Below are positions 1-36,053 of a DNA stretch of 39,606 bases, piece after piece. Origin of the DNA: Duncaniella sp. (GTDB taxonomy: Bacteria; Bacteroidota; Bacteroidia; Bacteroidales; Muribaculaceae); the NCBI GenBank assembly GCA_029056055.1, contig JAIDCC010000034.1, forward strand, positions 1 to 39,606, in the 5' to 3' direction. The first letter of the stretch is position 1; each line of letters begins with the position of its first letter. The notes under the pieces are model-generated. The model saw nothing but the letters and a program-made list of their open reading frames with translations, was not told the origin of the DNA and searched no databases. The position numbers and the translations under genes were made by a program.

Positions 1-110
1 TACCAGGCATAACAACCACCAGTCAACCTCCTTCAGGAATAACAGCTAACGAGTCAACTTCTGGCAGGAATAAAACCATCCGACAGTCAACCTTTTTCAG
101 GCAACGACAA
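1..110. repeat. Degenerate ~32-bp tandem repeat, cut by window edge
   Basis: GTCAAC occurs at 22-27, 53-58 and 86-91 (spacing 31 and 33 bp). Each is followed by a CTTC/TTTC-like stretch and CAGG(A/C)A. A partial unit with CCAGGCATAA lies at the left edge. The copies are too diverged for CRISPR repeats and no credible reading frame explains them. It may be a decayed tandem repeat extending out of the window. Confidence 0.45.
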
Positions 111-163
111 ATTGACATTTTGACAAGATGATAATGATTATGAGAAATGAGAAATGAGAAATT
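106..163 (-). repeat. Composite GTCAA/GAGAA intergenic element (copy A)
   Basis: A short tract of TTGACA-type units is followed by three TGAGAAA units. Read on the minus strand, this is the [TTCTCAT]n-[TTGTCAA]n left half of the composite element found throughout the window; the hairpin half is missing. It lies just upstream of the promoter of the first gene. Confidence 0.75.
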
Positions 164-185
164 GGTCGGGGGTGGGGAGGCAAAT

Positions 186-217
186 TTTGGATATAAGAAT
201 ATTTTTTTGTAATTTTG
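186..217 (+). promoter_or_regulatory. Bacteroidota-type promoter of the glycosidase cluster
   Basis: A -33 TTTG at 186-189 and a -7 TAATTTTG at 210-217 are separated by 20 bp, matching the Bacteroidota consensus (TTTG, 19-21 bp, TAnnTTTG). It lies about 100 bp before the first lipoprotein gene. No other convincing promoter was seen before 9801, so it may drive the whole cluster. Confidence 0.75.
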
Positions 218-318
218 CGGTTGAAACGATTTTGCGCGGTGTCGCGGCGTTTCATCAACCTTAGTCTTTGCCTTCGTCTGCGGGGGCATTCATACCAAAA
301 AACTCTCACGTCAAAACA

Positions 319-2451
319 ATGCTTACCTCGGGTAAATATCTACTGTTAGGTACGGGCGCTTTGTGGCTTCTTGGCGCCGCCACTTCATGCAAGACCACTT
401 CGGGCATTGACCGCGATGCACTCGTGGCCCGTAACAATCCCCACATTACGGCTATCGACACTATGGCTTCGCTCACTGTCGGCAACGGCGGCTTTGCCGT
501 GACGGTTGACGTGACGGGTCTGCAATCTTTCCCTGAATACTATACGAACGGTGTGCCTCTCGGCACCCAGAGCGAGTGGGGCTGGCATAAGTTTGCCAAT
601 CCCGAAAATCTGCGTTTCGCGGAGACTCTCAAGGAGATGGACTTCGGGCGCGGTCATAAGGAGCTTTATGCCGCTCAGTATAAAGAGCTGGGCCGTCAGC
701 AGGACGCGGCCAACTGGTTTCGCGAAAATCCTCATCGTCTGCACCTCGGTTGCATAGGTTTCGAGGGGCTTACGCCCGCGTCGGTGAGCGACATCGACCA
801 GACCCTCGACATGATGAACGGTCAGATTACCTCGGAGTTTACCCATGCCGGAGAGCGCGTGAAGGTGGAGACCGTGTGCGATCCCGAGCTCGACATGCTC
901 GCCGCCTCGATAACGTCGGCTTCGCGTCTGCCTGTGAGCATCCGTCTGCCTTACCCGACGGGCAAACATGCCGATGACGCCTGCAACTGGAGCGCCGACT
1001 CGCTCCACCTGACTGAAATCGTGGCCACTTCAGACAACTCGGCCCTGCTGCGCCACACGCTCGACTCGACCACCTATTATATAAATCTGACGTGGGAGGG
1101 TGCTTCGGCTCCCGTGATGGACGGACGCAACAAGGCGGTCATCACCCCGACGCAAGACACATGGAGCTTCACGGCAGAGTTTACGCCCGAACGTCCCGAG
1201 GGTCGCGACGGACTGTCGTTTGCAAAGTCGCAGAAAGACGCTTCGGCCTATTGGCAGAAATTCTGGCGCGAGGGTGGAGTGGTGGACTTCAGCGAGTGCA
1301 CCGACCCGCGAGCCGCCGAGCTTGAACGCCGCGTGGTGTTGTCGCAGTACCTCCTTGCCGCCCAGTGCGCGGGAGTGACCCCTCCGCAGGAGACCGGTCT
1401 CACCTACAACTCATGGTTTGGCAAATATCACATGGAAATGATATGGTGGCATCAGGCACAGTTTGCGCTCTACGGACACGGCGACCTGCTGGCCCGCACG
1501 CTGCCCTGGTATGACTCGGTCAAGACCGTGGCCCGCGACATAGCCGCCCGTCAGGGATTCAAAGGCCTGCGCTGGATGAAGATGACCGACCCGTCGGGCA
1601 CGGAAGCCCCCTCTAACGTGGGTTCGTATCTGATATGGCAGCAGCCCCACCTCATCTATCTGGCCGAACTGCTCTATCGCGAAGCTCCCGACGAGGCATC
1701 GAAGAAGAAAATCATCGACCAATATTACGACCTCGTGCAGGGCACTGCCGAATTCATGGCCGACTTCGCCGAGTATGACGGCCTGGGCAACCGCTACGTG
1801 CTCCGCGGCGCTATCCCCGCGCAGGAGACGCTGCGAGCCGCCGAGACTGTCAACCCGCCTTTCGAACTGAGCTACTGGCATTTCGGACTTGACACCGCGC
1901 AGAAATGGCGCGAGCGCAAGGGAGAAGGCCGCAATCTCAACTGGGACGAAATCATCGACAAACTCTCGCCCCTCGCCGCCGGCGAAGAGGGTCTCTACCT
2001 CGCAGCCGAGACTGCCACCGACACCTACAAGGATATCCGATTCACGTCAGACCACATGGCCGTGCTCGCCGCGCTGGGAGTGCTGCCCAAGTGCAACCTC
2101 GTGCGTGAGGACGTGATGGACAAGACCTTCGACTGGATTTACGACAACTGGAACTGGGGACGCACCTGGGGCTGGGACTATCCGACTACAGCCATGTGTG
2201 CCGTGCGCCTCGGTCAGCCCGAAAAAGCTATCGACGCGCTGCTCATGGACAAGCGCACCAACACCTATCTGCCCAACGGCCACAACTATCAGGACGGACG
2301 TCTGCGCTGCTATCTGCCCGGAAACGGCGGTCTGCTCACAGCTGTGGCGCTGATGACTGCCGGTTGGGACGGTTGCGAGGTGGAAAACCCCGGCTTCCCC
2401 AAGGACGGCACATGGAACGTGCGCTGGGAGGGGATTAAGCCGATGCCGTAA
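319..2451 (+). CDS. Six-hairpin (alpha/alpha)6 glycosidase-like lipoprotein
   Basis: A 710-residue secreted lipoprotein. The ATG at 319 is chosen because it gives a normal signal sequence with a lipobox Cys at about residue 24; an upstream in-frame start at 268 would place 17 odd residues before it. An N-terminal beta-rich half is followed from about residue 350 by a helical half. The helical half contains NSWFGKYHMEMIWWH and then an acidic stretch (TEAPSNVG), which resembles the layout of GH65/GH95-type (alpha/alpha)6 barrels, where a Glu in this area is the general acid. The exact family is not recognised. It is the first gene after a good promoter and lies beside DUF4450, GH106 and GH105 genes, so a role in trimming a pectic side chain outside or in the periplasm is inferred. 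A non-catalytic sugar-binding relative cannot be excluded. Confidence 0.8.
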   Translation: MLTSGKYLLLGTGALWLLGAATSCKTTSGIDRDALVARNNPHITAIDTMASLTVGNGGFAVTVDVTGLQSFPEYYTNGVPLGTQSEWGWHKFANPENLRFAETLKEMDFGRGHKELYAAQYKELGRQQDAANWFRENPHRLHLGCIGFEGLTPASVSDIDQTLDMMNGQITSEFTHAGERVKVETVCDPELDMLAASITSASRLPVSIRLPYPTGKHADDACNWSADSLHLTEIVATSDNSALLRHTLDSTTYYINLTWEGASAPVMDGRNKAVITPTQDTWSFTAEFTPERPEGRDGLSFAKSQKDASAYWQKFWREGGVVDFSECTDPRAAELERRVVLSQYLLAAQCAGVTPPQETGLTYNSWFGKYHMEMIWWHQAQFALYGHGDLLARTLPWYDSVKTVARDIAARQGFKGLRWMKMTDPSGTEAPSNVGSYLIWQQPHLIYLAELLYREAPDEASKKKIIDQYYDLVQGTAEFMADFAEYDGLGNRYVLRGAIPAQETLRAAETVNPPFELSYWHFGLDTAQKWRERKGEGRNLNWDEIIDKLSPLAAGEEGLYLAAETATDTYKDIRFTSDHMAVLAALGVLPKCNLVREDVMDKTFDWIYDNWNWGRTWGWDYPTTAMCAVRLGQPEKAIDALLMDKRTNTYLPNGHNYQDGRLRCYLPGNGGLLTAVALMTAGWDGCEVENPGFPKDGTWNVRWEGIKPMP

Positions 2452-2470
2452 CGCAGCCCCACGACGGAGC

Positions 2471-2570
2471 CTTCTCAGCAGGCGGTGGCTTTTGAGAAGT
2501 GAGAAGTGTCAAATTGACATTTTGACAAATTGACATTTTGACATTTTGATTGAGAAATGAGAAAATGAGA
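2471..2570 (-). repeat. Composite GTCAA/GAGAA element (copy B)
   Basis: Read on the minus strand, this has the complete element order: TTCTCAT-type units, TGTCAA units at period about 9, CTTCTCACTTCTCA, a C-rich loop and TGAGAAG. It fills the gap between the first two genes, and its end overlaps the first codons of the DUF4450 gene. Confidence 0.85.
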
Positions 2571-5500
2571 AAGATAATCCTCCGAAGAACAAGGTCTATC
2601 CTGTCGGCGCTCGCTGTGACGGCAGGGGGACTTCTCGGCTGCTCGTTCACGCCCTCGGCCAACTTCGGGGGGGCGGGGCAGACCCCTTCAGACACAACAA
2701 TGGCAATGCACTACACGCCCTCGGCCGACGCCATCTCGGTGGAACTCTCGGGGAAAGCGCGCAAATTCAACCGCGGTCTCTACGGCGCCCACACGGGATT
2801 TCGCGTCGACGCTTCAGACACTCCCGAATTCGGTATCTACCTGCCGCGAATGGGGGGCAACATGCGTTTCACCCTTCCGAAAGGGAAACTCCGCTCAACG
2901 TACACGCCCGGACGTATGGACTACGAGCAGGGAGGTGTCGAGGTGCAGGCTCAGGTGCTCCGCTCGTCAGACGCCGCTCTGTGGAGCCTCACCAACCGCA
3001 CGGACAGCGAGGTGAGCATACCCGTGCGCTTCGGAGGTGTGGCCGAGAAAAAGTTCTCGCGCGAGGGCGACCTCGGAGTCGACCCCGCCGACTGCTTCGA
3101 GCTTAAGGACGAATATTGCAAAGGCAACGTCTTCACTGTCAAGGGCGATGAGGTCACGGTGGAATACGGGCCGAAAGAACGCAAAGAGCTCCACCTTGTC
3201 ATCCCCGCCTCGGAATACAAGATTTCGAAGAAGCCTGTCTACGAAGGCTCAATCATCCTGCGCCCCGGCGAAACGAAATACGTGGCCCTCTTTCCGGCCG
3301 GAGTGACCCCCGCAAAGGCAGCCGAACTGCCCGCGCTCATGGACCGGGCCGAAGCTGAGAGAGAAGCCCTCGCCTCGACGGTGAAAATCTCCACCCCCGA
3401 GAGTCTGCTCAACCCGATAGGCGGAGCGTTGGCCATAGCCGCCGATGCCATCTGGAGCGGCGAGGCATGGCTGCACGGTTCGATAGGCTGGCGCACCCCC
3501 CACCTCGGTTGGCGCGGAGCCTACGCCGGCAATGCTGTAGGGCGTCACGACCGTTCGCTCACCCATCTGCTCAACTATGCCGACAATCAGATAACCGACA
3601 TTCCCGCCATCTATCCTCACCCGTGTCAGGACCCGAAAGCCAACCTTGCACGCGCCGAAAAGAAGTGGGCCACCCCGATGTATTCAAACGGCTACATCTG
3701 CCGCCGCCCGGGCCACAAGGACGAAATGTCGCACTACGACATGAACCTCGTCTATGCCGACGCGATGCTGCGCCATTTCCGCCACACAGGCGACACGGCA
3801 GCGATGCGCAAGCTCTGGCCCACACTTCAGAGACACCTCGCATGGGAGAAACTCAACTTCGACCCCGACGGCGACCACCTCTATGACGCCTACTGCTGCA
3901 TCTGGGCGAGCGATGCGCTCTACTATGACGGAGGGCAGGTGACCCACTCGTCGGCCTACAACAAATTTGCCAACCAACTGGCCGCGCAGGTGGCCGAAGC
4001 GATAGGCGAGGACGCAACCCCCTACCGCGCCGAAGCCGAAGCCATAGGCCGCGCCATCGACTCGGTGCTGTGGATGAGCGACGAAGGCCATTGGGCCGAA
4101 TTCAAGGACACCATGGGCAAGAAGCGTCTCCACCCCTCGGCAGCGCTCTGGACCATCTATCATGCCATCGACTCGGAAGTGGGCGACCCCTTCGACCGCT
4201 ATGCCGCGGCGGGTTACGTAGAGGCCGAAATCCCTCACATCCCCGTGGGACGATATAACGGCGAGAAGTATTATACCGTCTCGACAACCGACTGGAAACC
4301 ATATGCGTGGAGCATCAACAACGTGGCCATAGCCGAGGTGATGCACACGGCGCTCGCACTTTGGGAAGCGGGACGCAGCGACGAAGCCTATGCCCTGATG
4401 ATGGGGTGTGTCATCGACAATATGTATCAGGGAGCCTCGCCCCTCAACTTCGGACAGATTTCGCAATATGACGCTGCCCGCGGCGAATGCTACCGCGACT
4501 TCGCCGACCCGATAGGCGTGTGGGGGCGTGCGTTGACCGAAGGCTTGTTCGGCATACGCCCCGACCTGCTCGGACGCAAGACGGTAGAAGTGATGCCCGG
4601 CTATCCCGCCGACTGGAAGGAAGCCTCGATTTCGCTCCCCGACATCTCCTATCAGTTTGCCCGCAGCCTCGATGAGAATACCGAGACCTATACGATAGAA
4701 AACCGTTACCCGGGCGACACACCCGTAGAACTCGTGGTGAGAGCCAAGGGAAACCTCGAAGTGACCATCGACGGCCGCCCCGCCGAATGGGAGACTGAAA
4801 CAATGTCGTTTCTCGAGCCGCGCATCCGCATCAAGGTGCCTGCCGCAGCACGCTCGGAAGTGAAAGTGGTGCGCAAGGACCGCGGGCAGATGAACCGCCC
4901 GACCGGACGCGAGGAGCGCCGCGGCAAATACTGCAAATTCGTAGAGATGACCAACGGCGTGCAGACCTGGTGGAACGTCATCGAGTCGGCCCGTGAGAAT
5001 GAGAATGAGAAATTTCTCAAGCTTATGGCCTCCGTGAGAAATGAGAATGAGAAAAATCTCACCACAGGGGCTTCCGTGAGAAATGAGAATGAGAAAAGCG
5101 CGATAGCCAGCGACTTTGAGGAGATACCCTCGGAGATGGTGACCGTAGACATCGACGGCTCGTTTAACGCCCGCCTCAACGACCTCTTCCGCGAAGACTA
5201 CGTCTCGCCCGCACCCGCATCGACCACCCTGCGCATGCCGCGTCAGGGAATAGGGGAGTGGTGTCACCCGACAGACACCTTTGCCGTAGACAACAGCGGA
5301 CTCCGAGCCCTCGCCACGGCAGCCGGAGGCGAGTTTGTCACCCCGCTCGGCATCCCCCTGCGCATCCCAGCCGAAGGGCGCGACATCGTCTTCACCTCTC
5401 TGTGGGACAACTACCCCGACTCGGTCACCGTGCCCCTCTCAGGGTCAGGCACCAAACTCTATGCCGCCCTTGCCGGCTCGTGCAACCACATGCAACACAA

Positions 5501-5855
5501 GATGGAGGCGGGACGAATCACGGTGAGATACACCGACGGCACGTCGACCGTCTATCCGCTCGTCAGCCCCTTCACATGGGCACCGATAGAGCAAGACTTC
5601 TATACCGACGACTACGCCTACACCAACCACGGCATTCCCCAGCCCATGCGTCTGCACCTCAAGACAGGCCTCACCTCGCGCCGGCTCACCGACCACATCG
5701 AGGGCAGCGGAGTCTACGGACGTCAGATAGAAGGCGGGGCGGGCGTCATGGCCGAAATAGCCCTCGACCCGTCGAAACAGCTCTCTTCGCTCACACTCGA
5801 AACACTTTCAAACGACGTAATAATCGGCCTGATGGCCCTTACAATAGGAAAATGA
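2565..5855 (+). CDS. DUF4450-type lipoprotein with (alpha/alpha)6 region
   Basis: A 1096-residue secreted lipoprotein. The ATG at 2565 gives a signal sequence with lipobox LLGC (Cys26); a TTG at 2550 is a less likely start. The N-terminal part (about residues 45-260) carries FNRGLYGAHTGFRV and LPRMGGNMRF, which I associate with DUF4450 proteins of Bacteroidales polysaccharide loci. The middle (about 290-690) looks like a six-hairpin glycosidase domain (DPDGDHLYDAYCCIW, then SAYNKFANQLA). The C-terminal part is beta-rich. Residues 810-844 are odd: three N-E-N-E-K repeats encoded by the window's intergenic GAGAA element. Its stop overlaps the GH106 start (ATGA), so the two are probably co-translated. 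The enzymatic activity is unknown; a glycosidase or accessory role on rhamnogalacturonan is inferred from the GH106 and GH105 neighbours. Confidence 0.8.
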   Translation: MRKIILRRTRSILSALAVTAGGLLGCSFTPSANFGGAGQTPSDTTMAMHYTPSADAISVELSGKARKFNRGLYGAHTGFRVDASDTPEFGIYLPRMGGNMRFTLPKGKLRSTYTPGRMDYEQGGVEVQAQVLRSSDAALWSLTNRTDSEVSIPVRFGGVAEKKFSREGDLGVDPADCFELKDEYCKGNVFTVKGDEVTVEYGPKERKELHLVIPASEYKISKKPVYEGSIILRPGETKYVALFPAGVTPAKAAELPALMDRAEAEREALASTVKISTPESLLNPIGGALAIAADAIWSGEAWLHGSIGWRTPHLGWRGAYAGNAVGRHDRSLTHLLNYADNQITDIPAIYPHPCQDPKANLARAEKKWATPMYSNGYICRRPGHKDEMSHYDMNLVYADAMLRHFRHTGDTAAMRKLWPTLQRHLAWEKLNFDPDGDHLYDAYCCIWASDALYYDGGQVTHSSAYNKFANQLAAQVAEAIGEDATPYRAEAEAIGRAIDSVLWMSDEGHWAEFKDTMGKKRLHPSAALWTIYHAIDSEVGDPFDRYAAAGYVEAEIPHIPVGRYNGEKYYTVSTTDWKPYAWSINNVAIAEVMHTALALWEAGRSDEAYALMMGCVIDNMYQGASPLNFGQISQYDAARGECYRDFADPIGVWGRALTEGLFGIRPDLLGRKTVEVMPGYPADWKEASISLPDISYQFARSLDENTETYTIENRYPGDTPVELVVRAKGNLEVTIDGRPAEWETETMSFLEPRIRIKVPAAARSEVKVVRKDRGQMNRPTGREERRGKYCKFVEMTNGVQTWWNVIESARENENEKFLKLMASVRNENEKNLTTGASVRNENEKSAIASDFEEIPSEMVTVDIDGSFNARLNDLFREDYVSPAPASTTLRMPRQGIGEWCHPTDTFAVDNSGLRALATAAGGEFVTPLGIPLRIPAEGRDIVFTSLWDNYPDSVTVPLSGSGTKLYAALAGSCNHMQHKMEAGRITVRYTDGTSTVYPLVSPFTWAPIEQDFYTDDYAYTNHGIPQPMRLHLKTGLTSRRLTDHIEGSGVYGRQIEGGAGVMAEIALDPSKQLSSLTLETLSNDVIIGLMALTIGK
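4991..5097 (+). repeat. Intragenic in-frame copy of the GAGAA element (copy C)
   Basis: Three units of CCGTGAGAA(A)TGAGAATGAGAAA start at 4991, 5032 and 5074 (spacing 41 and 42 bp), inside the DUF4450 gene. Between them lie TTTCTCAAG and AATCTCACC, the opposite hairpin arm. The flanks GGCCTCCGTGAGAA and GGCTTCCGTGAGAA resemble the loop and arm of intergenic copy F. The insert has no stop and encodes R-E-N-E-N-E-K, then V-R-N-E-N-E-K twice. Confidence 0.85.
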
Positions 5856-8638: not shown

Positions 8639-8654
8639 TCCTCAGTTCTCCACC

Positions 8655-9800: not shown

Positions 9801-9831
9801 TTGAAAGAAATAACAAGTCAACTCAACAGAA

Positions 9832-9875
9832 GGCCGGTGCGAAAACAAAAACATTCGTGCCGGTCTTTGTTTCTT
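9832..9875 (+). terminator. Intrinsic terminator after GH105
   Basis: A 12-bp stem (GGCCGGTGCGAA at 9832-9843 with TTCGTGCCGGTC at 9854-9865, using G-U pairs) with a 10-nt A-rich loop, followed by TTTGTTTCTT. It lies before the small plug-protein gene, which may be expressed by read-through or its own promoter. Confidence 0.8.
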
Positions 9876-9890
9876 AACCCCTCAAAAGCC

Positions 9891-10568: not shown

Positions 10569-10591
10569 CCCCGACGGCTGTCCCACCCGCG

Positions 10592-10646
10592 CTTCTCACT
10601 TCTCACTCTTCGCTTTCTTGAGAAGATGAGAAATGAGAAGATGATA
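10592..10646 (+). repeat. GAGAA hairpin element (copy D)
   Basis: CTTCTCACTTCTCACT faces TGAGAAATGAGAAG across a short loop; this is the hairpin half of the composite element without its GTCAA tract. It lies 24 bp after the plug gene and could also act as its transcript end. Confidence 0.75.
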
Positions 10647-10660
10647 GGGGGATGGTTGGT

Positions 10661-10748
10661 ACGCGATTCTTCGCGTCCTCGCACCCCCACGATGTCGAAT
10701 TGCCCTGAAACGCCGTGCCAACGTCGCTGCGGACGCGAAGAATCGCGT
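10661..10748. repeat. Pair of REP-like palindromes (REP 1)
   Basis: ACGCGATTCTTCGCGTCC at 10661-10678 recurs as its exact reverse complement at 10731-10748. Each arm is itself nearly self-complementary (GACGCG...CGCGTC). The right copy is followed by CTAC, as in the palindrome at 36073. This paired layout resembles the paired REP elements (BIMEs) of enterobacteria. Confidence 0.75.
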
Positions 10749-10780
10749 CCCTACTTTCGTAGTTTGGAAAATTATTGTGA

Positions 10781-10825: not shown

Positions 10826-10853
10826 TAATTGTTATGTGTGCGAAATTCGGCTA

Positions 10854-12296: not shown

Positions 12297-12341
12297 TGAT
12301 TAAAAGGGTATTGGAAAGATAAGTATGACGTTCGGATGGAA

Positions 12342-13292: not shown

Positions 13293-13360
13293 GTTTCTCA
13301 AATCGACTCAAATTGTCAAAATGACAACTTGACAAATTGAGAAATGAGAAATGAGAAATT
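13293..13360 (-). repeat. Composite GTCAA/GAGAA element (copy E)
   Basis: On the minus strand, three TTCTCAT units are followed by TTGTCAA and TTGACAA units and a weak TCAAATTTGAG-type end. It fills the gap between the GH115 stop and the cdsA promoter. Confidence 0.78.
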
Positions 13361-15922: not shown

Positions 15923-15962
15923 GGTGGGGCGCAATACATAGCGCCCGCGCAGGCCCACGAGG
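15923..15962. repeat. REP-like palindrome (REP 2)
   Basis: Core GGGCGC AATACATA GCGCCC (15927-15946), flanked on the right by GCGC-AGGCCCACGAGG. The reverse complement closely matches the element at 36054-36096, including the CGTGGG flank. It lies in the 5' leader of the GH115 gene. Confidence 0.75.
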
Positions 15963-15993
15963 ACAATTTCTTGCGAGCCAAGCTACTGTGTCG

Positions 15994-16069
15994 GTTCTCA
16001 TCAAATTCTCATCATTATTCTCATCGGGGGGGAGGCCCGTGAGAAGTGAGAAATTGAGAAGTGAGAAAC
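15994..16069 (+). repeat. GAGAA hairpin element (copy F)
   Basis: Three TTCTCATC-type units face GTGAGAAGTGAG and further GAGAA units across a G-rich loop (GGGGGGGAGGCCC). Only the hairpin half of the composite element is present; there is no GTCAA tract. Confidence 0.75.
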
Positions 16070-19833: not shown

Positions 19834-19859
19834 CGCCCCGCCGCCGTTGACGAGGGTTT

Positions 19860-19984
19860 TCTCACTTTCTCATTTTGTCAAATTGACAATTTGTCAATTT
19901 GTCAATTTGACATTTTGACATCTTGACTCTTCTCACTTCTCACTTCTCATGTAGCCACTCCGATGAGAAATGAGAAATGAGAAT
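19860..19984 (+). repeat. Composite GTCAA/GAGAA element (copy G), fullest plus-strand form
   Basis: The order is TTTCTCATT units, then about six TTGTCAAA/TTGACAAT units (19876-19925), then TTCTCAC repeats (19930-19950), a 12-nt loop (19951-19962) and ATGAGAA repeats (19963-19983). The last two blocks pair over 21 bp with two mismatches. Confidence 0.88.
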
Positions 19985-24975: not shown

Positions 24976-25000
24976 AACCTCTGACAAACCAAATAATGAT

Positions 25001-28000: not shown

Positions 28001-28627
28001 CTCGACCTCTCCGGCGTGCCCGCTATGGAGCAGCTCTATCTCTCGAACAACAAGCTCTCGGAGCTCGACATCACCAAGACCCCCAATCTGAAGTCGCTGA
28101 CCATTGACCGCAACAACTTCACCTTTGCAACTCTGCCCGACTTCTTCGACGGCATCTACTATCTCTACTCCAACCAGGCCATGCTCGAAGTGACTCCGGT
28201 TGACGGCATCGTCGACCTCTCGGCACAGGCCTCCTGCAACGGTGTGGCAACCACCTTCCAGTGGTTCATCGACTCGCCCTACTTCGACGACAACTACGAA
28301 CTCGTGGGCGAAGAGCTCATCGAAGGCACTGAATACCGCCTCGACAAGGGTGTCACCACCTTCCTCAAGCCCTTCGAACACATCATGTGTGTCATGACCA
28401 ACCCCATCGCTCCCGACCTCTACCTTCTCACCGACTTCATCGACGTCAAAGCCTCGTCGACAGGTCTTGAGGAAATCATCGCCGGCAGCGACAACCTCGA
28501 TGCACGCTGGTATGACCTCAACGGTCGCCTCGTAGCCGAAACCAAGGGTGGCGAAGTTCCCGCTCTCGCTCCCGGTGTCTACGTGCGCCAGACTTCTGAA
28601 GGTGCCACCAAGGTGCTCGTGAAGTAA
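25001..28627 (+). CDS. Secreted three-module leucine-rich-repeat protein
   Basis: A 1208-residue exported protein with a signal peptide ending near SLWAA. It contains three leucine-rich-repeat blocks, at about residues 110-345, 535-700 and 890-1040, with units such as NLTTLDVSNNPLLLSLNCSW. Each block ends in the same cap motif: FDFATLP, FSLTTLP or FTFATLP. Each cap is followed by a beta domain with a (V/I)(D/N)L(S/A)...T.(F/Y).(W/F) pattern. So the protein is built of three copies of one LRR-plus-beta module. The last roughly 40 residues (WYDLNGRLV, LAPGVYV, KVLVK) form a sorting-type tail. Ligand binding or adhesion at the cell surface is inferred from the LRRs. It is in one operon with the S8 protease. 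Confidence 0.9.
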   Translation: MSIKHAMRGLALTALLTAGTSSLWAAQHAPDEEPIITFHTTLYDQAQEANAFTLCLGATEPTYFDIDCGFGAVESEVGVAYFDQETGALRGTYITCTVSSAGDVRIYGDPTKIDYIDFDGCYITEMSFPKVTNVEILSLNHNLFTGLDLSHLTKLQALYISDNPFDKTGFIVGKNHPDLTIADMSIINNLDPSFNLSDYPEMRSFQGWDNPSLTSIDPSGCPNLLQLSIDNTNVSSVDLSNNPNLLILNVANTRVTELDLSPVTGLTELYISHSADMNNEYKFSSIDVSMLPSLQRLSCSSNNLTTLDVSNNPLLLSLNCSWNQLTSIDLSNNQQLVSLDVAYNHFDFATLPSPREMWSEYWYTQLPMEVDRSYKVGSTIDLASRVLRPGTATQTFLFAYDENNPQEPVMLDNTAFSYKDGVVTLNKVYTDSLYLTFINSELQDYPLSTSKFMVKSAEDFGKPSAAMSMTFFPTLTEVSFGVGVQGATAEAPKTFYVDFGDGELKEFTASSHLRPATPNVTGARKGRVTIYMPEGADISAFSLDGQRLMSISLDQAHTLAELSLTDCQLPTIDLSWNRCLTYLDLSGNNLTALNLGETPNGYGKTVLHTIKAARNRLVTVTIDERHAIKYIDFSDNNLSEGFSFLQLLNVSTLNVANNEFTEVDLRDLEACVDLNLSGNYLTTVAMPDYLPLESFDISNNSFSLTTLPLPGNIANYVYAPQKNVPLPVKAPTVNLSANYLDVDGQTTSYVWRKADGTVVPTDEITGTEGRFRFINTELGFVYCEMSHPLFPDFAGENILKTTQVETAGMPTHVFATFTTAEEGEALLSLAAEAENTGIYIDWAGNDDLEQYTLTTTYRAFTAKTYPGVTVKCYSYDENDGMTVFSIGNVKLNDMDASAMKKVYCFSSYDTGLDLDKIKLPANKAILEELNLEGNNISSIDLSGYDALRMLDLASNKFTTFDSSNLPALELISLAYNGLTSVKLNNPILWQAALVANELTELDLSGVPAMEQLYLSNNKLSELDITKTPNLKSLTIDRNNFTFATLPDFFDGIYYLYSNQAMLEVTPVDGIVDLSAQASCNGVATTFQWFIDSPYFDDNYELVGEELIEGTEYRLDKGVTTFLKPFEHIMCVMTNPIAPDLYLLTDFIDVKASSTGLEEIIAGSDNLDARWYDLNGRLVAETKGGEVPALAPGVYVRQTSEGATKVLVK

Positions 28628-28654
28628 GCCGCAGATTTCGATTATCTCTTTTCA

Positions 28655-28702
28655 GCCATCCTACGTCTCGCAGTCCGAGCGGAGGGTGGTTTTTGTTTTT
28701 TC
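28655..28702 (+). terminator. Terminator after the LRR gene
   Basis: CCATCCT (28656-28662) pairs with AGGGTGG at the end of 28681-28689, and the hairpin is followed by a long T-run interrupted by one G (TTTTTGTTTTTTC). This closes the S8-LRR transcript. Confidence 0.75.
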
Positions 28703-28710
28703 ATTAATCA

Positions 28711-28814
28711 ATCAATTTGTCATTTTGTCAATTTGACATTTTGACAATTTGACATTTTGACAATTTCTCAAATTCTCACTTCTCACTTCTCACATGCCGC
28801 CCCTGATGAGAATA
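28711..28814 (+). repeat. Composite GTCAA/GAGAA element (copy I)
   Basis: Alternating TTGTCAAT and TTGACATT units at period about 9 are followed by TTCTCACTTCTCAC, a C-rich loop and GATGAGAAT. The leading TTCTCATT block is absent. It lies directly after the terminator and before the next promoter. Confidence 0.85.
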
Positions 28815-28837
28815 GGCCCCGTCTTGATAGCTTCCTT

Positions 28838-28868
28838 TTTGCTTTTTGCGATTTTTTCCTTACCTTTG
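28838..28868 (+). promoter_or_regulatory. Promoter of the GH43-GH97 gene
   Basis: A -33 TTTG (28838-28841) and a -7 TACCTTTG (28861-28868) are separated by 19 bp. It lies 30 bp before the start codon. Confidence 0.72.
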
Positions 28869-28897
28869 TGCCATAAAAATCACGTTACAATCTAACC

Positions 28898-31777
28898 ATG
28901 AAAATACTTCGTTACATTGTGCCTGCCCTTGTGGCCGGAATTGCTTCGGCTGCCTCTGCCGCTCCCGTGGCCGACAGCGACCTCGAAGGCTATCTCTTCG
29001 TCTACTTCACCAGTGGAAAAGACGGCGAAGCCATCCGCTACGGTGTCTCCGACGACGCTTTCCGGTGGCATGCTCTCAACGACAATCTCCCCGTCATTTC
29101 TTCGAAAGCTATCTCGCAGACCGGCGGTGTGCGCGACCCCCACATCCTGCGTCGCGAAGACGGCAAAGGTTTCTACATGGTGGCCACAGATATGGTGGCG
29201 GCCAACGGTTGGGACTCAAACCGCGCTATGGTGCTCATGAAGTCGAAAGACCTCGTCAACTGGGACCACACCGTAATTAATATACAAGACCGTTTCCCCG
29301 AAATGGCCGAAGGACTCAAGCGAGTGTGGGCGCCGCAGACCATCTACGACCCCGCAGCCGGGCGCTACCTCGTCTATTGGTCGATGAAACATGACGACGG
29401 CCCCGACATCATCTACTATTCCTATGCCAACGACGACTTCACCGACCTCACCGACACCCCCCGTCCCTTCTTCCTCCCCGCCGACGGCATGGCTTGCATC
29501 GACGGCGACATCGTGGTGAAAGACGGCAAGTATTACCTTTTCTATAAGACCGAGGGGCATGGCAACGGCATCAAAGTGGCCGTCACCGACAATCTCACCT
29601 CTGGCCACTGGACCGAAAGCCCCGACTACAAGAACCTCACCCGCGACAAAGTGGAGGGAGCCGGCACGTTCAAACTCATCGGTCGCGACGAGTGGGTGCT
29701 CATGTATGACGTCTACACCTCGCGCCGCTACGACTTCAACACCACCACCGACCTCTCGACGTTCCACTCCGTAGACCACGCCATCGAAATGGACTTCAAG
29801 CCCCGCCACGGCACTGTCATCGCCCTCACCGGTCCGGAACTCGCCCGCATCCGTCAGGCCTTCCCCTCGGCCGTCAATCCCGAGCAGACCGTCACCGCCA
29901 CGAGTCCCGATGGCGCAGTCTCGCTCACCGTCAGCTGTCCCGACGGCATTCCTTCCTACTCGCTTAGCCTCGACGGAACCCCAATCCTCCTCGACTCACC
30001 CCTCGGCCTCGCCACTTCCTCCACCGACTACACCTCGGGCATGCGTCTCGTAGCCGCCTCGGAAGCACCCTTCACCAAGCATTACACCCAGACACGCATC
30101 AAGCAGAGCAGCGTCGACGTCGAAGCAAACCGTCTCCACTGCACCTATGTCAACCCCGACGGTCGTCGTCTCGGTGTGGAATTCATCATCAAAAACAACG
30201 ACGTGGCTTTCCGCTACCTCCTGCCCAAGCAGACCGAAGAGGGTAGTGCCCGCGTCATGCGCGAAGCCACAGGTTTCCGTTTCCCTGCCGAGACCACCAC
30301 GTTTCTCTCTCCGCAGAGCACGCCCATGATAGGGTGGAAGCGCTCCAAACCGAGCTATGAGGAAGAATACACCCCCGACGCTCCCCTGACGGCCCGCTCC
30401 AAATTCGGCGAAGGCTTCACATTTCCCGGCCTCTTCCACATCAACGGCCCGAAGGAAGCTTGGGCGCTCGTCAGCGAGACCGGTGTAGATTCGCGCTACT
30501 GTGCCTCACGCCTGCTCGACGCCGACTCCACAGGTCTCTTCCGTCTCGGTTTCCCCATGCCCGGCGAAAACAATGGCAACGGCACCCTCGAACCCGCCTT
30601 TGCGCTGCCCGGCTCAACGCCGTGGCGCACCATCTCGTTTGGCTCCACCCCCGCGCCCATAGCCGAAAGCACCATCTACTGGGACGTGGTCGAACCTCTC
30701 TACGAAGCTCCCGTGGCGCCCGTTCCCGGCCGAAGCACATGGAGCTGGATTCTCTGGCAAGACAATTCCATCAACGCCTCCGACCTGCGCGAGTTTGTCG
30801 ACCTCGCAGCAGCAATGGGCTACGAATACACCCTCATCGACGCCGGTTGGGACAAGACCCTCGGCCGCGACGGCATGGAGGCGCTCTTCGAGTATGGCCG
30901 CGAGCGCGGTGTGGCTCCCTTCGTCTGGTATAGTTCGTCGGGCTACTGGAACGACATCGTCCAAAGTCCCATCAACCGCATGGACAACCCCATCGCCCGT
31001 AAGGAAGAAATGCGCTGGCTGCGCGACAACGGTGTCAAGGGCATCAAGGTTGACTTCTTCGGAGGCGACAAGCAGGAGACCATCCGCCTCTACGAAGCTA
31101 TCCTCTCCGACGCCGCCGACCATGGCCTGATGGTGATTTTCCACGGCTGCACCCTCCCGCGCGGCTGGGAGCGCATGTATCCCAACTACGTTGGCAGCGA
31201 GGCTGTGCTCGCGAGCGAAAACATGGTGTTTCAGCAACATTTCTGCGATACCGAGGCATTCAACGCCACGCTTCACCCCGTCATCCGCAACTCTGTAGGG
31301 TCGATGGAGTGGGGTGGTACCTTCCTCAATCGTCGCCTCAGCCGCGACAACCGCCACGGTTCGGAGCGACGCACCTCCGACGCCTTCCAGCTCGCCACCA
31401 CGGTGCTCTATCAAAACCCCATTCAAAACTTCGCCCTCGCCCCCAACAACCTCACCGATGCCCCTGCATGGGCGCTCGACTACATGAAAGCCGTGCCCAC
31501 CACCTGGGATGAGACCCGCTACATCGACGGCTATCCCGGACGCTACGTAGTTCTTGCACGCCGCCACGGCGACGACTGGCGCATTGCCGCTGTCAACGCC
31601 TCGACCGAGCCCCTCGACCTCTCGCTCAATCTTGCCGACTACTTCGCCCCCGGCACGGAAGTGACCCTCATCTCCGACAACGCCCGTCTCGAAAGCACGC
31701 CCTCCCGCGTCAAGGCCGGCAAAAAGCCCCTGCGCGTCACCGTCCCCGTCAACGGCGCCGCCCTCATCACCCGCTGA
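28898..31777 (+). CDS. GH43-GH97 bifunctional glycoside hydrolase fusion
   Basis: A 959-residue exported protein with a signal peptide ending near ASAA. Residues about 28-325 form a GH43-type five-bladed beta-propeller: GYLFVYFTSG, GVRDPHIL (Asp80), CIDGDIVV (Asp202/204) and VEGAG (Glu253) are the likely active-site acids. Residues about 330-959 form a GH97 enzyme: an N-terminal beta-sandwich (SYSLSLDGTPILLDSPLGL), then a TIM barrel (LIDAGWD, GVKGIKVDFFGGD, YPNYVGSEA). Asp719 in KVDFF matches the nucleophile position of retaining GH97 enzymes such as alpha-galactosidases, rather than the inverting SusB type. GH43 members often remove arabinofuranose or xylose, so the pair may strip two sugars from one branched glycan, for example an arabinogalactan or arabinan. 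The substrate is inferred. The gene has its own promoter and no enzyme gene beside it. Confidence 0.9.
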   Translation: MKILRYIVPALVAGIASAASAAPVADSDLEGYLFVYFTSGKDGEAIRYGVSDDAFRWHALNDNLPVISSKAISQTGGVRDPHILRREDGKGFYMVATDMVAANGWDSNRAMVLMKSKDLVNWDHTVINIQDRFPEMAEGLKRVWAPQTIYDPAAGRYLVYWSMKHDDGPDIIYYSYANDDFTDLTDTPRPFFLPADGMACIDGDIVVKDGKYYLFYKTEGHGNGIKVAVTDNLTSGHWTESPDYKNLTRDKVEGAGTFKLIGRDEWVLMYDVYTSRRYDFNTTTDLSTFHSVDHAIEMDFKPRHGTVIALTGPELARIRQAFPSAVNPEQTVTATSPDGAVSLTVSCPDGIPSYSLSLDGTPILLDSPLGLATSSTDYTSGMRLVAASEAPFTKHYTQTRIKQSSVDVEANRLHCTYVNPDGRRLGVEFIIKNNDVAFRYLLPKQTEEGSARVMREATGFRFPAETTTFLSPQSTPMIGWKRSKPSYEEEYTPDAPLTARSKFGEGFTFPGLFHINGPKEAWALVSETGVDSRYCASRLLDADSTGLFRLGFPMPGENNGNGTLEPAFALPGSTPWRTISFGSTPAPIAESTIYWDVVEPLYEAPVAPVPGRSTWSWILWQDNSINASDLREFVDLAAAMGYEYTLIDAGWDKTLGRDGMEALFEYGRERGVAPFVWYSSSGYWNDIVQSPINRMDNPIARKEEMRWLRDNGVKGIKVDFFGGDKQETIRLYEAILSDAADHGLMVIFHGCTLPRGWERMYPNYVGSEAVLASENMVFQQHFCDTEAFNATLHPVIRNSVGSMEWGGTFLNRRLSRDNRHGSERRTSDAFQLATTVLYQNPIQNFALAPNNLTDAPAWALDYMKAVPTTWDETRYIDGYPGRYVVLARRHGDDWRIAAVNASTEPLDLSLNLADYFAPGTEVTLISDNARLESTPSRVKAGKKPLRVTVPVNGAALITR

Positions 31778-31784
31778 GAGATTT

Positions 31785-31950
31785 TTCTCGATTCTCATTT
31801 CTCATTTTCTCATTTTCTCATTTTGTCAATTCGTCAATTTGTCAATTTGTCAAAATGTCAAAATGTCAATTCCTCTCTCCTCCCTTTCTCAATTTCTCAA
31901 TTTCTCACTTCTCACGCCCCCTGTGCGAAGCGAGAAATGTGAGAAATCGC
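31785..31950 (+). repeat. Composite GTCAA/GAGAA element (copy J), longest copy
   Basis: Five TTCTCATTT-type units, six TGTCAA units at period about 9, several TTTCTCAA/TTCTCAC units, a C-rich loop (CGCCCCCTGTGCGAAGCG) and GAGAAATGTGAGAAAT. This is the full block order and fills the gap between GH43-GH97 and the prs promoter. Confidence 0.88.
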
Positions 31951-31966
31951 AATTTGCCCCCGTTTT

Positions 31967-32000
31967 TTTGGTGTCGTTTCGGGAATAATTTGTAACTTTG
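31967..32000 (+). promoter_or_regulatory. Promoter of prs
   Basis: A -33 TTTG (31967-31970) and a -7 TAACTTTG (31993-32000). The 22-bp spacer is slightly longer than the usual 19-21. It lies about 28 bp before the prs start. Confidence 0.68.
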
Positions 32001-32028
32001 CAGCCGAAAATACTTCACTCCAACTCTT

Positions 32029-32976
32029 ATGATTGACAATCTACCCCCAATCAAAGTTTTCGCCGGCACTAAATCCACCTACATGGCCGAGGAAATCTGT
32101 CGTGAACTTGGCTGCCAGCTCGGCCAGATGAACATCCAGTACTTTGCCGACGGCGAATTCGAAGTCTCGTTTGAAGAATCAATCCGTGGCTGCGAGGTCT
32201 ACCTCGTGCAGTCCACGTTTCCCAACTCCGACAATCTGATGGAGCTGCTCCTGATGATTGACGCCGCCAAGCGTGCCTCGGCTGCCTCTATCATCGCCGT
32301 CATGCCCTACTTCGGTTGGGCCCGTCAGGACCGTAAGGACAAACCCCGTGTTTCGATTGCCGCCAAGCTCGTGGCAAACCTGCTCACCACCGCCGGCGTC
32401 GACCGCATCATCACCATGGACCTCCACGCCGACCAGATTCAGGGCTTCTTCGACATCCCCGTCGACCACCTCTATGCCTCGTCGGTGTTCATCCCCTACA
32501 TCCAGAGCCTCAAGCTCGAAAACCTCGTCATCGCCTCGCCCGACGTCGGCGGCGCCAAGCGTGCCAACAACTACGCCAAATATCTCAACGTGCCCCTCGT
32601 GCTCTGCCACAAGCAGCGTGCCAAGGCCAACGTCGTGGCCAACATGACCGTCATCGGCGACGTCAAAGACAAAGACGTGATTATCGTCGACGACATGGTC
32701 GACACCGCCGGCACTATCACCAAGGCTGCCAATCTGATGATGGAAAACGGTGCCCGCTCCGTCCGCGCCCTCTGCTCGCACGCCATCATGAGCGACCCCG
32801 CTTCCGAACGCGTCGACAACTGCGCTCTCACCGAGATGATTTTCACCAACTCGATTCCCTTCACCCACAAGTGCAGCAAGGCCACCATCCTCTCTGTGGC
32901 CCGACTCTTCGCCGACACCATACGCCGTGTCCACACCCACGAGTCGATTTCCTCGCAATACCTCATCAAGCACTAA
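32029..32976 (+). CDS. prs: Ribose-phosphate pyrophosphokinase (PRPP synthase)
   Basis: A 315-residue cytosolic enzyme making PRPP from ribose-5-phosphate and ATP, the feed for nucleotide, His and Trp synthesis. Near-universal motifs are present: YFADGEFEVSFEESIRG, MPYFGWARQDRKDKPR (ATP and catalytic loop), TMDLHADQIQGFF, and the PRPP/ribose-phosphate loop DVIIVDDMVDTAGTI at 216-230. The length is standard. An S9 peptidase gene follows after 27 bp and upp, a PRPP-using enzyme, comes next; the three may share a transcript. Confidence 0.97.
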   Translation: MIDNLPPIKVFAGTKSTYMAEEICRELGCQLGQMNIQYFADGEFEVSFEESIRGCEVYLVQSTFPNSDNLMELLLMIDAAKRASAASIIAVMPYFGWARQDRKDKPRVSIAAKLVANLLTTAGVDRIITMDLHADQIQGFFDIPVDHLYASSVFIPYIQSLKLENLVIASPDVGGAKRANNYAKYLNVPLVLCHKQRAKANVVANMTVIGDVKDKDVIIVDDMVDTAGTITKAANLMMENGARSVRALCSHAIMSDPASERVDNCALTEMIFTNSIPFTHKCSKATILSVARLFADTIRRVHTHESISSQYLIKH

Positions 32977-33003
32977 AGCCCGCCCTCTCCCTCCATCTCA
33001 TCC

Positions 33004-35154
33004 ATGCAACACATCAAGACTCTCGCACTTTCGGCCGCTCTCTGCGGCACGCTCGCCTCTTGCTCAGGCTCGGGCGAATCGAAAGCTGACATCATCGACC
33101 GTCCCGCCGCTCCCGAAGCCGGGACTCTCTTCAGCCTCGATGCTCTCGAATCGCTCGGTCGCATTTCCGACGTGAAAGTTTCGCCCGACGGCTCGAAGGT
33201 GCTTTTCTCAATCTCATATGAAAGCGTTGAGAAAAACACTTCCAACGCCGACCTCTACGTGGTAGACATCGACGGCTCAAACCTCACCCGTCTCACCAAG
33301 ACCCCCAAGAGCGAAGCAAACTTCTGCTGGATTGACCGCGGCCGTCAGATAGCCTACACCTATCCTGTCGACGGTAAGCCCCAGATTTGGGTGATGAATG
33401 CCGACGGCTCCTCGCCCCGCGCCGTCTCCAAAATCGAGAAGGGTGTCGAAGGCTTCCTCTTCTCGCCCGACACCAAGAAGGTGGTGGTAATCTCTACCGT
33501 CAAGTATGCCCACACCGCAGCCGAGCTCTATCCCGACCTGCCCGATGCCACCGGACGCATCATCGACGACCTCCTCTACAAGCACTGGGATGAATGGGTC
33601 ACCGAAATCCCTCATCCCTTCCTCGCCGACTTCACGGGCAGCGGCCTCGAAAATGTCACCGACATCATGGCCGACGAACCCTACGAAGCTCCCATGCGCC
33701 CCTTCGGCGGTGTCGAGTCGTTTGCCTGGGCGCCCGACTCCCACAGCCTCATCTATGTATCGCGCAAGAAGACCGGTATGGAATATGCCCTCTCCACCAA
33801 TTCCGACCTCTATCTCTACGACCTCGCCGAAGGCACCACACGCAACCTCACCGAGGGCATGATGGGCTACGACACCTGTCCCGCCTACTCGCCCGATGGC
33901 CGCTACGTGGCATGGCTCTCGATGGAACACGACGGGTATGAAAGCGACAAAAACCGCATCTTCGTGCTCGACAACACCACCGGCACCAAGACCGACCTCA
34001 CCGCCGATTGGGACTACACCGCCGACGCTATAGCCTGGCGTCCCGACGGAAAGGGTCTCTTCTTCATCGCTCCCAAGGATGGCGTGACTCCCATCTTCTC
34101 CGTGGCCCTCGACTCTCACGAGGTTTCCGTAGTGGCCGAAGACGTGGCCGATTTCGCCGGTCTCCAGCCCCTGCCCGAAGGTGGTGTCGTCAGCCTGCGC
34201 CACTCGATTCTCTATCCCAACGAAGTCGTGGCCATCGCCGCCGACGGCTCGCTCAAGCAGCTCACCGACGTCAACACCTCGGTGCTCGCCTCGCTCAAGA
34301 TGCCTACCGTTGAAAAACGCATGGTGCCCACTACCGACGGCAAGGAGATGCTCGTCTGGGTGGTGCTTCCCCCCGACTTCGACCCCAACGGCTCTTATCC
34401 CGCGCTTCTCTACTGTCAGGGTGGCCCGCAGCAGCCCGTAAGCCAGTTCTGGAGCTATCGCTGGAACCTCGCCCTCATGGGTGCCCGCGGCTACATCGTC
34501 ATTGCCCCCAACCGTCGCGGCCTTCCCGGCTTCGGCACCGAATGGAACGCTCAGATTTCGGGCGACTATCCCGGTCAGAATATGCGTGACTACCTCTCGG
34601 CTGTCGACTACATGAAGCAGTTCCCCTACGTCGACTCGGCCCGCATCGGTGCTACAGGCGCAAGCTACGGCGGCTTCTCGGTCTACTGGCTCGCAGGCAA
34701 TCACGAAGGTCGCTTCGCCGCCCTCCTCGCCCATGCAGGCATCTTCAACACCGAAGCTCAGTATCTCGAGACCGAGGAAATGTGGTTTGCCAACTGGGAC
34801 CTCGGCGGCCCCTACTGGGACAAGAGCAACCCCGTAGCACAGCGCACCTTCGCCTCGTCGCCCCACAAGTTTGTCGACCGCTGGACCGCTCCCATCATGA
34901 TTTCTCACGGCGAACTCGACTACCGCATCCTCTCCTCGCAGGGCGAAATGGCCTTCAACGCCGCAAAACTCCGTGGCATCCCCGCCGAGATGGTCATCTA
35001 TCCCGATGAAAACCACTGGATTCTCAAGCCCCAGAACGCAGTGCTCTGGCAGCGACTCTTCTTCCGTTGGTTCGACCGCTGGCTCAAGCCCGACACCGCC
35101 AAGGCCATCGCCGAAGATTCCGTCGACCCGTCTGTCGACCCCGACGTGAGGTAA
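33004..35154 (+). CDS. S9 prolyl-oligopeptidase-family (DPP-like) lipoprotein
   Basis: A 716-residue secreted serine peptidase. The signal sequence ends in lipobox LASC (Cys20). Residues about 40-420 form a beta-propeller with WD-like blades (ISDVKVSPDGSKVLF, SPDGRYVAWLS). Residues about 440-700 form an alpha/beta-hydrolase domain with catalytic Ser554 (GASYGGF), Asp639 (HGELDYRI) and His671 (DENHW). This is the build of dipeptidyl peptidases such as DPP5/DPP4 of Bacteroidales, which release N-terminal dipeptides from oligopeptides in the periplasm. The exact cleavage preference cannot be read from sequence. It lies 27 bp after prs, so it probably depends on that promoter despite the unrelated function. 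Confidence 0.93.
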   Translation: MQHIKTLALSAALCGTLASCSGSGESKADIIDRPAAPEAGTLFSLDALESLGRISDVKVSPDGSKVLFSISYESVEKNTSNADLYVVDIDGSNLTRLTKTPKSEANFCWIDRGRQIAYTYPVDGKPQIWVMNADGSSPRAVSKIEKGVEGFLFSPDTKKVVVISTVKYAHTAAELYPDLPDATGRIIDDLLYKHWDEWVTEIPHPFLADFTGSGLENVTDIMADEPYEAPMRPFGGVESFAWAPDSHSLIYVSRKKTGMEYALSTNSDLYLYDLAEGTTRNLTEGMMGYDTCPAYSPDGRYVAWLSMEHDGYESDKNRIFVLDNTTGTKTDLTADWDYTADAIAWRPDGKGLFFIAPKDGVTPIFSVALDSHEVSVVAEDVADFAGLQPLPEGGVVSLRHSILYPNEVVAIAADGSLKQLTDVNTSVLASLKMPTVEKRMVPTTDGKEMLVWVVLPPDFDPNGSYPALLYCQGGPQQPVSQFWSYRWNLALMGARGYIVIAPNRRGLPGFGTEWNAQISGDYPGQNMRDYLSAVDYMKQFPYVDSARIGATGASYGGFSVYWLAGNHEGRFAALLAHAGIFNTEAQYLETEEMWFANWDLGGPYWDKSNPVAQRTFASSPHKFVDRWTAPIMISHGELDYRILSSQGEMAFNAAKLRGIPAEMVIYPDENHWILKPQNAVLWQRLFFRWFDRWLKPDTAKAIAEDSVDPSVDPDVR

Positions 35155-35200
35155 ACAACACGTGAAGTAAACAACAACTGATACTCATACGTTAATATAT

Positions 35201-35227
35201 GTGCCCTCGGCTCCCCTCCGGGGGCAC
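35201..35227 (+). terminator. Hairpin between S9 peptidase and upp
   Basis: GTGCCCTCGG pairs with CCGGGGGCAC over 10 bp (one G-T) around a 7-nt loop. The tail (TGTCATATCC) is not T-rich, so it may be an attenuating or mRNA-stability hairpin rather than a full terminator. Confidence 0.45.
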
Positions 35228-35259
35228 TGTCATATCCTCTACAATCCCCCCTCTCAGCT

Positions 35260-35913
35260 ATGGAAGTAATCAACTTCGCCAAAACCCCCTCGCTCGTCAG
35301 TCAGTACATGGCCGAGCTCCGCGACGTCAACGTTCAGAACGACCCCCTCCGTTTCCGCCGCAACCTTGAGCGCATCGGTCAAATCATGGCCTACGAAATC
35401 TCGAAGCTCATCCACTACGACACCGTCGACGTCACCACCCCTCTCGCCACGGCCAAATGTCAGGTGCTCAGCGAGCAACTCGTCCTCGCCACAATCTTCC
35501 GCGCCGGCATCCCCTTCCATCAGGGCTTCCTCAGCTACTTCGACCACGCCCAGAACGCCTTCGTCTCGGCCTATCGCAAATATCGCGAGAAAGAAAACTT
35601 CGACGTCTTTATCGAATACATAGCCTCGCCCCGTCTCGACGGAAAGACCATAGTCATCGCCGACCCCATGCTCGCCACCGGAGCCTCCATGGAACTCTGC
35701 TACCGCGCGCTCCTCACCAAAGGCAACCCCGCCCACATCCACGTGGCCGCCGTCATAGCCTCGCAGAAAGCCATCGACTACATCCGCGCCACCTTCCCCG
35801 CCGACCGCACCACCGTATGGGTAGGCGCCATTGACGACGAAATCAATTCCCACTCCTACATCGTCCCCGGACTCGGCGACGCCGGCGACCTCGCCTACGG
35901 CATCAAGGAATAG
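35260..35913 (+). CDS. upp: Uracil phosphoribosyltransferase
   Basis: A 217-residue cytosolic pyrimidine-salvage enzyme making UMP from uracil and PRPP. Seen: LRDVNVQNDPLRFRRNLERIG near the N-terminus, FRAGIPFHQGFLSYF (where other UPRTases read RAGLPM..G), the PRPP loop TIVIADPMLATGASM at 130-144, and WVGAIDDEINSHSYIVPGLGDAGDLAYG as the uracil-binding end. It is a little longer than the E. coli enzyme, with the diverged sequence I associate with Bacteroidales. It comes 105 bp after the S9 peptidase, across a hairpin, and may be part of the prs transcript or have its own weak promoter. Confidence 0.95.
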   Translation: MEVINFAKTPSLVSQYMAELRDVNVQNDPLRFRRNLERIGQIMAYEISKLIHYDTVDVTTPLATAKCQVLSEQLVLATIFRAGIPFHQGFLSYFDHAQNAFVSAYRKYREKENFDVFIEYIASPRLDGKTIVIADPMLATGASMELCYRALLTKGNPAHIHVAAVIASQKAIDYIRATFPADRTTVWVGAIDDEINSHSYIVPGLGDAGDLAYGIKE

Positions 35914-35942
35914 CCGGCCGACCGGCTACACCCCGAAGGCAC

Positions 35943-36053
35943 CTCAATTTGTCAATTTGTCAATTTGTCAATTTGTCAAAATGTCAAAATGTCAAATTCC
36001 CCTTCTCAAATTCTCAATTTCTCACTTCTCAAGAGCCCCCCTTGATGAGAAGT
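35943..36053 (+). repeat. Composite GTCAA/GAGAA element (copy K)
   Basis: Six TTGTCAATT/TGTCAAAA units at exact 9-bp period (35946-35995) are followed by TTCTCAAA, TTCTCAATTTCTCACTTCTCA, a C-rich loop and TGATGAGAAG. The leading TTCTCATT block is missing. It runs straight into a REP-like palindrome. Confidence 0.88.

Follow-up and report, generated by a model that had tools for sequence, protein, structure and literature searches.

Across a 39,606-base stretch of Duncaniella sp. DNA (assembly GCA_029056055.1, contig JAIDCC010000034.1, here C58; hereafter the window), gaps between genes repeatedly carry a composite repeat, in which an array of 8-base words with GTCAA cores is joined to a hairpin with TTCTCA and TGAGAA arms and a C-rich loop. 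On balance, these composites are probably a mosaic of non-coding repeats, in which tandem words grown by slippage are combined with a locally copied hairpin and with repetitive extragenic palindromic (REP) sequences. Such a mosaic would be akin to bacterial interspersed mosaic elements (BIMEs) and to the short tandem repeats of cyanobacteria known as short tandemly repeated repetitive (STRR) sequences. The genome comprises 2.88 Mb in 129 contigs, of which ∼616 kb were examined, with hit-bearing contigs taken on purpose. The comparison set holds one genome per species, and genes, apart from those bearing recognizable domains, were called by a hexamer script. All copies named in the original prediction, which was made from the letters of the window and proposed a modular element with a fixed block order, are present at their positions (Table 1).

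The micro-repeats are real and exceed chance expectation. Clusters of at least 4, 5, 7, and 10 of the words TGAGA, TCTCA, TGTCA, and TGACA number 11, 10, 8, and 6 in the window, against means of 0.09, 0.01, 0, and 0 in 100 dinucleotide shuffles of it, and the same words written backward form no cluster at any of the four thresholds. The GTCAA block is tandem as predicted, but its period is 8 rather than the proposed ∼9; the hairpin arms have a period of 7. Indeed, the ∼616 kb contain 18 arrays of period 8, three of period 7, and five of period 9, the last consisting of a different word. Similarly, GTCAA and GAGAA micro-repeats are both there, but not as separate words. Because TTTGTCAA, TTTGACAT, and TTTCTCAA are 1–3 bases apart and follow one another in one register, these units are best described as close variants of a single word, TTTSWCAW. 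Array units vary by single bases within the period-8 register, and their number varies among copies. With tandem units within 5–11 bases, many copies, and a mostly intergenic location, the arrays are STRR-like.

Block order is largely fixed. Writing A for TCTCA, t for TGTCA, T for TGACA, and a for TGAGA, arrays of six or more words, of which the contigs fetched from this genome contain 37, have the consensus order A, t, T, A, loop, a. In these arrays the step t-T occurs 31 times and T-t seven times; counted together with their complements, A-t occurs 17, T-A 22, t-A nine, and A-T zero times, all of these being steps in related arrays and therefore not independent events. A TGACA block usually follows the TGTCA block and precedes the second TCTCA block. 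Of 22 hairpins whose loop is C-rich, ten are flanked on one side, at a distance of up to 130 bases, by at least three TGWCA words, and in nine of these ten the array is 5′ of the loop (3′ in the other, at C68:4389); the remaining 12 have no TGWCA array within that distance. These counts uphold the predicted order as mostly fixed over many copies. The full order had been assigned to copies B, G, and J; B and G have it, and J has it save for a TGACA block. The loops are more alike than shuffles (z 5.6, matched by 0 of 300 shuffles; 19 chosen loops, with four listed hairpins left out), and a linker plus REP piece 3′ of the hairpin is common to K, F, and C17:24656, part of the same linker being recognizable by eye in copy B. 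The common order, the alike loops, and the shared linker/REP piece suggest descent of the composites from one another. Neither the fixed order nor the likeness of the loops, although both favor a common ancestry, demonstrates a function.

The array and the hairpin are separable. A search of 397 family genomes found the hairpin pattern TTCTCACTTCTCA-N8-18-TGAGAA 11 times here and not once in the remaining 396; its backward control occurs once each in two family genomes. Eight other family genomes contributed 36 nonredundant arrays, in which t-T steps again outnumber T-t steps (24 to 9); none of these arrays has an A-a hairpin. Because the relatives' arrays keep the polarity without this hairpin, the polar GTCAA array appears to be the common core and the hairpin specific to this species. 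The proposal of a single unit of unknown kind has to be abandoned, since the GTCAA array stands alone in other genomes, and the hairpin and REP palindromes are modules of their own. Independent blocks in random order, named in advance as a refutation, are not what this genome contains, but elsewhere in the family GTCAA tracts are found that have no GAGAA hairpin.

As assessed by folding, all eight window stretches analyzed are more stable than their shuffles (z −3.0 to −7.4). Copies A and E had been described as lacking a clear hairpin, which is correct for A, but E folds into a single long nested hairpin (z −4.2). When units were permuted within arrays the effect was modest, with 28 of 37 arrays folding better than the permutation mean, nine not, and a mean z of −1.07.

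The arrays are concentrated in a small part of the genome. Three copies of TTTGTCAA in tandem, with up to three mismatches, gave 65 overlapping matches on 11 of the 129 contigs (none for the reversed pattern), and 57 of these matches lie on six contigs (C15, C17, C18, C58, C62, and C68; hereafter the rich contigs) that together span 178 kb, or 6.2% of the genome. Eighteen arbitrary contigs (244 kb) yielded one cluster only, inside a called gene. A 42-base overlap of their ends suggests that C42 and C68 are neighbors, and the rich contigs may all form one region. The same genome has a second word family, TCAGAGTTA, with a period of 9 and 43 matches on 15 contigs, which overlap the contigs of the first family in C79 alone. 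One TCAGAGTTA array lies behind a terminator-like stem, and another is read in frame as SEL/SE repeats.

In the family, the array (up to two mismatches) was found in 10 of 297 genomes, representing 5 of 30 genera, and the reversed control in one genome. A collection of 84,980 genomes contained 32 exactly matching stretches, many from Bacteroidota and others from cyanobacteria, a betaproteobacterium, and further groups. The sole viral array bearer, a viral contig (L220, 5568–5623), has seven exact TTTGTCAA units. In other genomes (L106, L098, L107, and L109), TTTGTCAA arrays continue from those of different words, for instance TGATTAT/TGATTAC, TTAGCTCA, or TTTAACAA, as if the words drifted along the array.

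Empty orthologous sites, which had been named in advance as support, were found wherever a comparison was possible. Three of ten window copies (K, B, and the intragenic copy at 4994) could be bridged in genus-mates, and in all three cases the array is absent there; the bridged gaps contain no array, one of them having a single TCTCA. The gap holding copy K is 234 bp, against 57 bp in G024, and that holding copy B is 265 bp, against 134 bp in G003. For the intragenic copy, the corresponding spans are 117 versus 24 bp (G024), 163 versus 76 bp (G019 and G012), and 311 versus 209 bp (G003), and it is an in-frame insertion adding ∼30 residues to the product of gene 2706–5855 relative to these four genomes. 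Related stretches totaling ∼159 kb, taken from eight genus-mates, contain three clusters of scattered words, none of them a period-8 array by eye.

Insertion sequence (IS) ends and REP-like palindromes accompany the arrays. Related IS-like termini (AGTCAACCTTTTTCAGGCAACGACA, GAGTCAACTTTTTTCAGGCAAAGACA) form the starts of C58, C18, C42, and C62 and the ends of C62 and C17, and in all six places array words follow directly or within ∼15 bases. A terminus search of the assembly gave these six contig-edge ends only and no IS body. In relatives, the 26-bp terminus lies beside transposase-like frames in the three loci examined. The rve domain of the transposase-like frame tested, together with the layout, suggests that the element is of IS3 type; in ten relative loci where the terminus was seen, none has an array after it. 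At one locus (L181, 1490–1540; G263:C17), two 26-bp IS termini stand face to face with 7 bases between them, forming a large near-perfect palindrome. The stretches examined contain 40 candidate GTAG-tagged REP-like palindromes, some probably due to chance, eight of them no more than 250 bases from an array. The possibility that the arrays are embedded in a larger dispersed element was rejected: after masking of the words, nothing but REP and IS-like pieces and a few short ones recurred in the rich contigs.

We propose that a period-8 array, with TGWCA cores every 8 bases, would arise and expand through replication slippage or unequal recombination, and that these processes would propagate variant units as blocks as well. 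A hairpin of period 7, with TTCTCA/TGAGAA arms and a C-rich loop, would have joined such an array in this species, and the composite, at times with a neighboring REP palindrome, would have spread by copying to further gaps, chiefly those of one genomic region. Copying would most simply make use of short words that the sites share, between which template switching or gene conversion would take place, and copies would survive where they are least harmful, often just behind genes, several of them beside the putative IS3-type element. They would have no function for the host. This mosaic is suggested by the single-base unit variants, the shared order, the alike loops, the concentration in few contigs, the empty sites in relatives, the second word family, the IS-like ends by arrays, and the in-frame entry into a gene, and because word arrays of such a kind are described for cyanobacteria and Beggiatoaceae in parts of the literature (PMC2408588, PMC4679880). 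Several points weigh against it. The fixed order and the recurrence of one word in five genera are both left unexplained by slippage alone, and slippage and ectopic copying are deduced from one genome per species rather than observed between strains. In 11 of the 37 arrays, the fold of the native unit order is better than that of permuted orders at p < 0.05, which is readable as selection for structure, and most array flanks are unique once words are masked, so that most copies have no long common piece. In addition, a deficit of terminators at array gaps (0 of 33 gene ends versus 25 of 225) would fit a transcript-end function too.

Such a function, in which a hairpin transcribed at the 3′ end of a gene would block exonucleases or end transcription in either direction, is a serious but unlikely alternative. 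Among 53 clusters, 30 lie in tandem gaps, seven in convergent and three in divergent gaps, nine at contig edges, and four in called genes; this is no random sample, since 35 of the 53, outside C58, C110, and others, come from contigs picked for hits. Within the 30 tandem gaps, clusters lie a median of 13 nt from the upstream stop and 110 nt from the following start, and 18 of them are closer to the stop. A place behind genes is expected for tolerated insertions and transcript-end elements alike. Although the predicted intergenic location thus applies to most copies, it does not apply to the one inside gene 2706–5855, which also argues against a transcript-end role, and so does the orientation, which is independent of the genes as predicted (B against G). 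The stability of all eight folded stretches is in line with this role, but no T-run follows the listed hairpins, so that the G+C-rich stem plus T-run of an intrinsic terminator is lacking. A sigma-70/terminator scan of 26000–39606 gave the same counts as shuffles. A canonical intrinsic terminator stands beside 12 of 38 arrays in relatives, where arrays often lie behind an existing terminator, and beside 1 of 46 in this genome, that one being a REP palindrome. The deficit noted above concerns gene ends facing array gaps in the rich contigs; array gaps elsewhere have a canonical terminator in one of five cases, and array-free gaps in 3 of 43 (rich contigs) and 22 of 182 (other contigs). Fisher's test gives p = 0.053 against all array-free gaps and p = 0.25 within the rich contigs alone, making substitution of terminators by arrays suggestive only.

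We also doubt that the composite is a non-autonomous mobile element moved in trans by a transposase, similar to miniature inverted-repeat transposable elements (MITEs) or REP doublets forming hairpins (REPINs). Its dispersed copies with common order and alike loops, the three relative sites without a copy, the GTAG-tagged REPs near arrays, and the adjoining IS3-type termini would all suit such an element. However, the copies vary widely in length and have neither common ends nor the shared terminal inverted repeats and fixed length of a MITE. Target duplications are not visible at the bridged sites because these gaps are too diverged. Spread by REP-associated tyrosine transposases (RAYTs) was rejected, since the 129-contig assembly has no match to Y1_Tnp (PF01797), whereas 5 of 14 control genomes are positive.

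Two further explanations are improbable. In the first, TGWCA sites every 8 bases would form a protein-binding array for chromosome organization or regulation, as the near-palindromic core, the 8-base spacing kept across genera, and the TGTCA-before-TGACA polarity here and in relatives could indicate. Its absence from most genus-mates and, at the threshold used, from 287 of the 297 family genomes argues against this, as do the unrelated genes beside the copies, and no candidate protein was identified. In the second, equally improbable, a dedicated copying activity acting in trans would both generate the TGWCA arrays and use them as its template; sporadically acquired across Muribaculaceae and other phyla, it would place one and the same word behind genes in every genome that has it, and the hairpin taken up here would give the copies polarity and local spread. 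This activity might be an end-joining or reverse-transcribing polymerase priming on the 5-base core, and we keep it as a candidate because slippage alone fails to explain one word in five genera. Finally, contamination with array-rich contigs of another organism, to which the confinement to 11 contigs and a weak tetranucleotide separation of the rich contigs (balanced accuracy 0.69, reached by 5 of 200 permutations) might point, is highly improbable and was rejected, because the window contig has the single-copy prsA and a gene run matching that of the genus-mate G024 at 80–82% identity, G+C is alike (0.583 versus 0.568, p = 0.38), and the listed contamination is 0.13%.

Heptamers on both arms of a hairpin are also seen in stem P6b of the Nostoc tRNA-Leu intron, which has degenerate heptamer repeats; unlike the present composites, these are intron-borne and have no period-8 array. 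The window has no Rfam match at gathering score, the repeat words were not found in print in the exact forms searched, and a literature search yielded no paper joining Muribaculaceae with intergenic and tandem repeats. In line with the original prediction of no described family, no repeat of this layout turned up, while the composites are probably akin to known BIME/STRR mosaics. In the sections of PMC2408588 on filamentous cyanobacteria, short tandem heptamer repeats such as csR1.1 (ttgtcagttgtcagttgtca; 44 copies in Nostoc PCC 7120) are, like our arrays, multicopy intergenic series of near-identical words, and they grow by whole units, as our arrays may; but their period is 7, and those sections describe no fixed order or attached hairpin. 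TAACTGA direct repeats, recorded in part of PMC4679880 for Beggiatoaceae, cyanobacteria, and five Bacteroidetes with up to 169 sets per genome, similarly represent one short word sporadic over distant phyla. Their word is not the present one, and they stand for the most part directly before start codons, whereas the present arrays lie mostly behind genes and share neither that word nor that place. REP palindromes and BIMEs, moved by RAYTs (PMC2817692 and PMC3733652), are mosaics built from palindromic modules in intergenic DNA, frequently 3′ of genes and sometimes intragenic, which the present composites resemble. They differ in combining tandem words with a hairpin that bears no GTAG or CGTC tag, even though tagged REPs lie near some copies, and in a genome with no Y1 transposase or RAYT gene detected. 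Where PMC3733652 lists tags by phylum, GTAG repeats are assigned to other phyla and CGTC repeats alone to Bacteroidetes. The IS-like ends beside arrays recall the targeting of REPs by IS elements, as set out in part of PMC1525189.

The gene content of the window is ordinary. It includes prsA and genes for uracil phosphoribosyltransferase, an S9 peptidase, YceD, acyl carrier protein (ACP) synthase III, a probable Era-like GTPase (so named because it combines a GTPase domain with a KH domain), a cytidylyltransferase, and several glycoside hydrolases.

Table 1. Repeat copies and associated features (window positions unless a contig is given)
Feature	Position	Strand	Description
IS-like element terminus	1..109	+	Ends ...AGTCAACCTTTTTCAGGCAACGACA; contig edge; copy A directly next; shared with starts of C18 and C42
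Copy A	106..163	.	TGACA words, then TGAGAA words; no hairpin
Copy B	2471..2572	-	Full order; hairpin adjoins upstream stop codon
Intragenic copy	4994..5096	.	Inside gene 2706-5855; three in-frame TGAGAA sets: RENENEK, VRNENEK twice
Copy D	10593..10640	+	Hairpin alone
Copy E	13295..13360	.	TCTCA-TGTCA-TGACA-TGAGA; one nested hairpin on folding
Copy F	15995..16068	-	Hairpin alone; linker and REP-like piece at 15926-15971
Copy G	19859..19984	+	Full order; fold z −7.4
Copy I	28711..28813	+	TGTCA/TGACA array, TCTCA block, hairpin; no first TCTCA block
Copy J	31784..31950	+	Full order, save for missing TGACA block
Copy K	35943..36052	+	TGTCA array, TCTCA block, hairpin
GTAG-tagged REP palindrome	36073..36096	-	3′ of copy K; likewise after hairpin at C17:24656
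GTAG-tagged REP-like palindromes	36073-36096, 10727-10754; C1, C15, C20, C42, C85, C110, others		
TCAGAGTTA arrays	C5:8590-8636, C5:10743-10788, C45:1303-1450 (L073, L150)		Also on other contigs of the same genome

Taken together, these findings depict a short tandem repeat becoming an ordered, folding, and interspersed mosaic in one species, which may represent a stage between a microsatellite and a mobile repeat. Its arrays adjoin IS ends and are able to enter a gene in frame. The recurrence of TTTGTCAA in 10 of 297 family genomes and in several phyla makes it a testable question why bacteria keep amplifying a few words of 7–8 bases.

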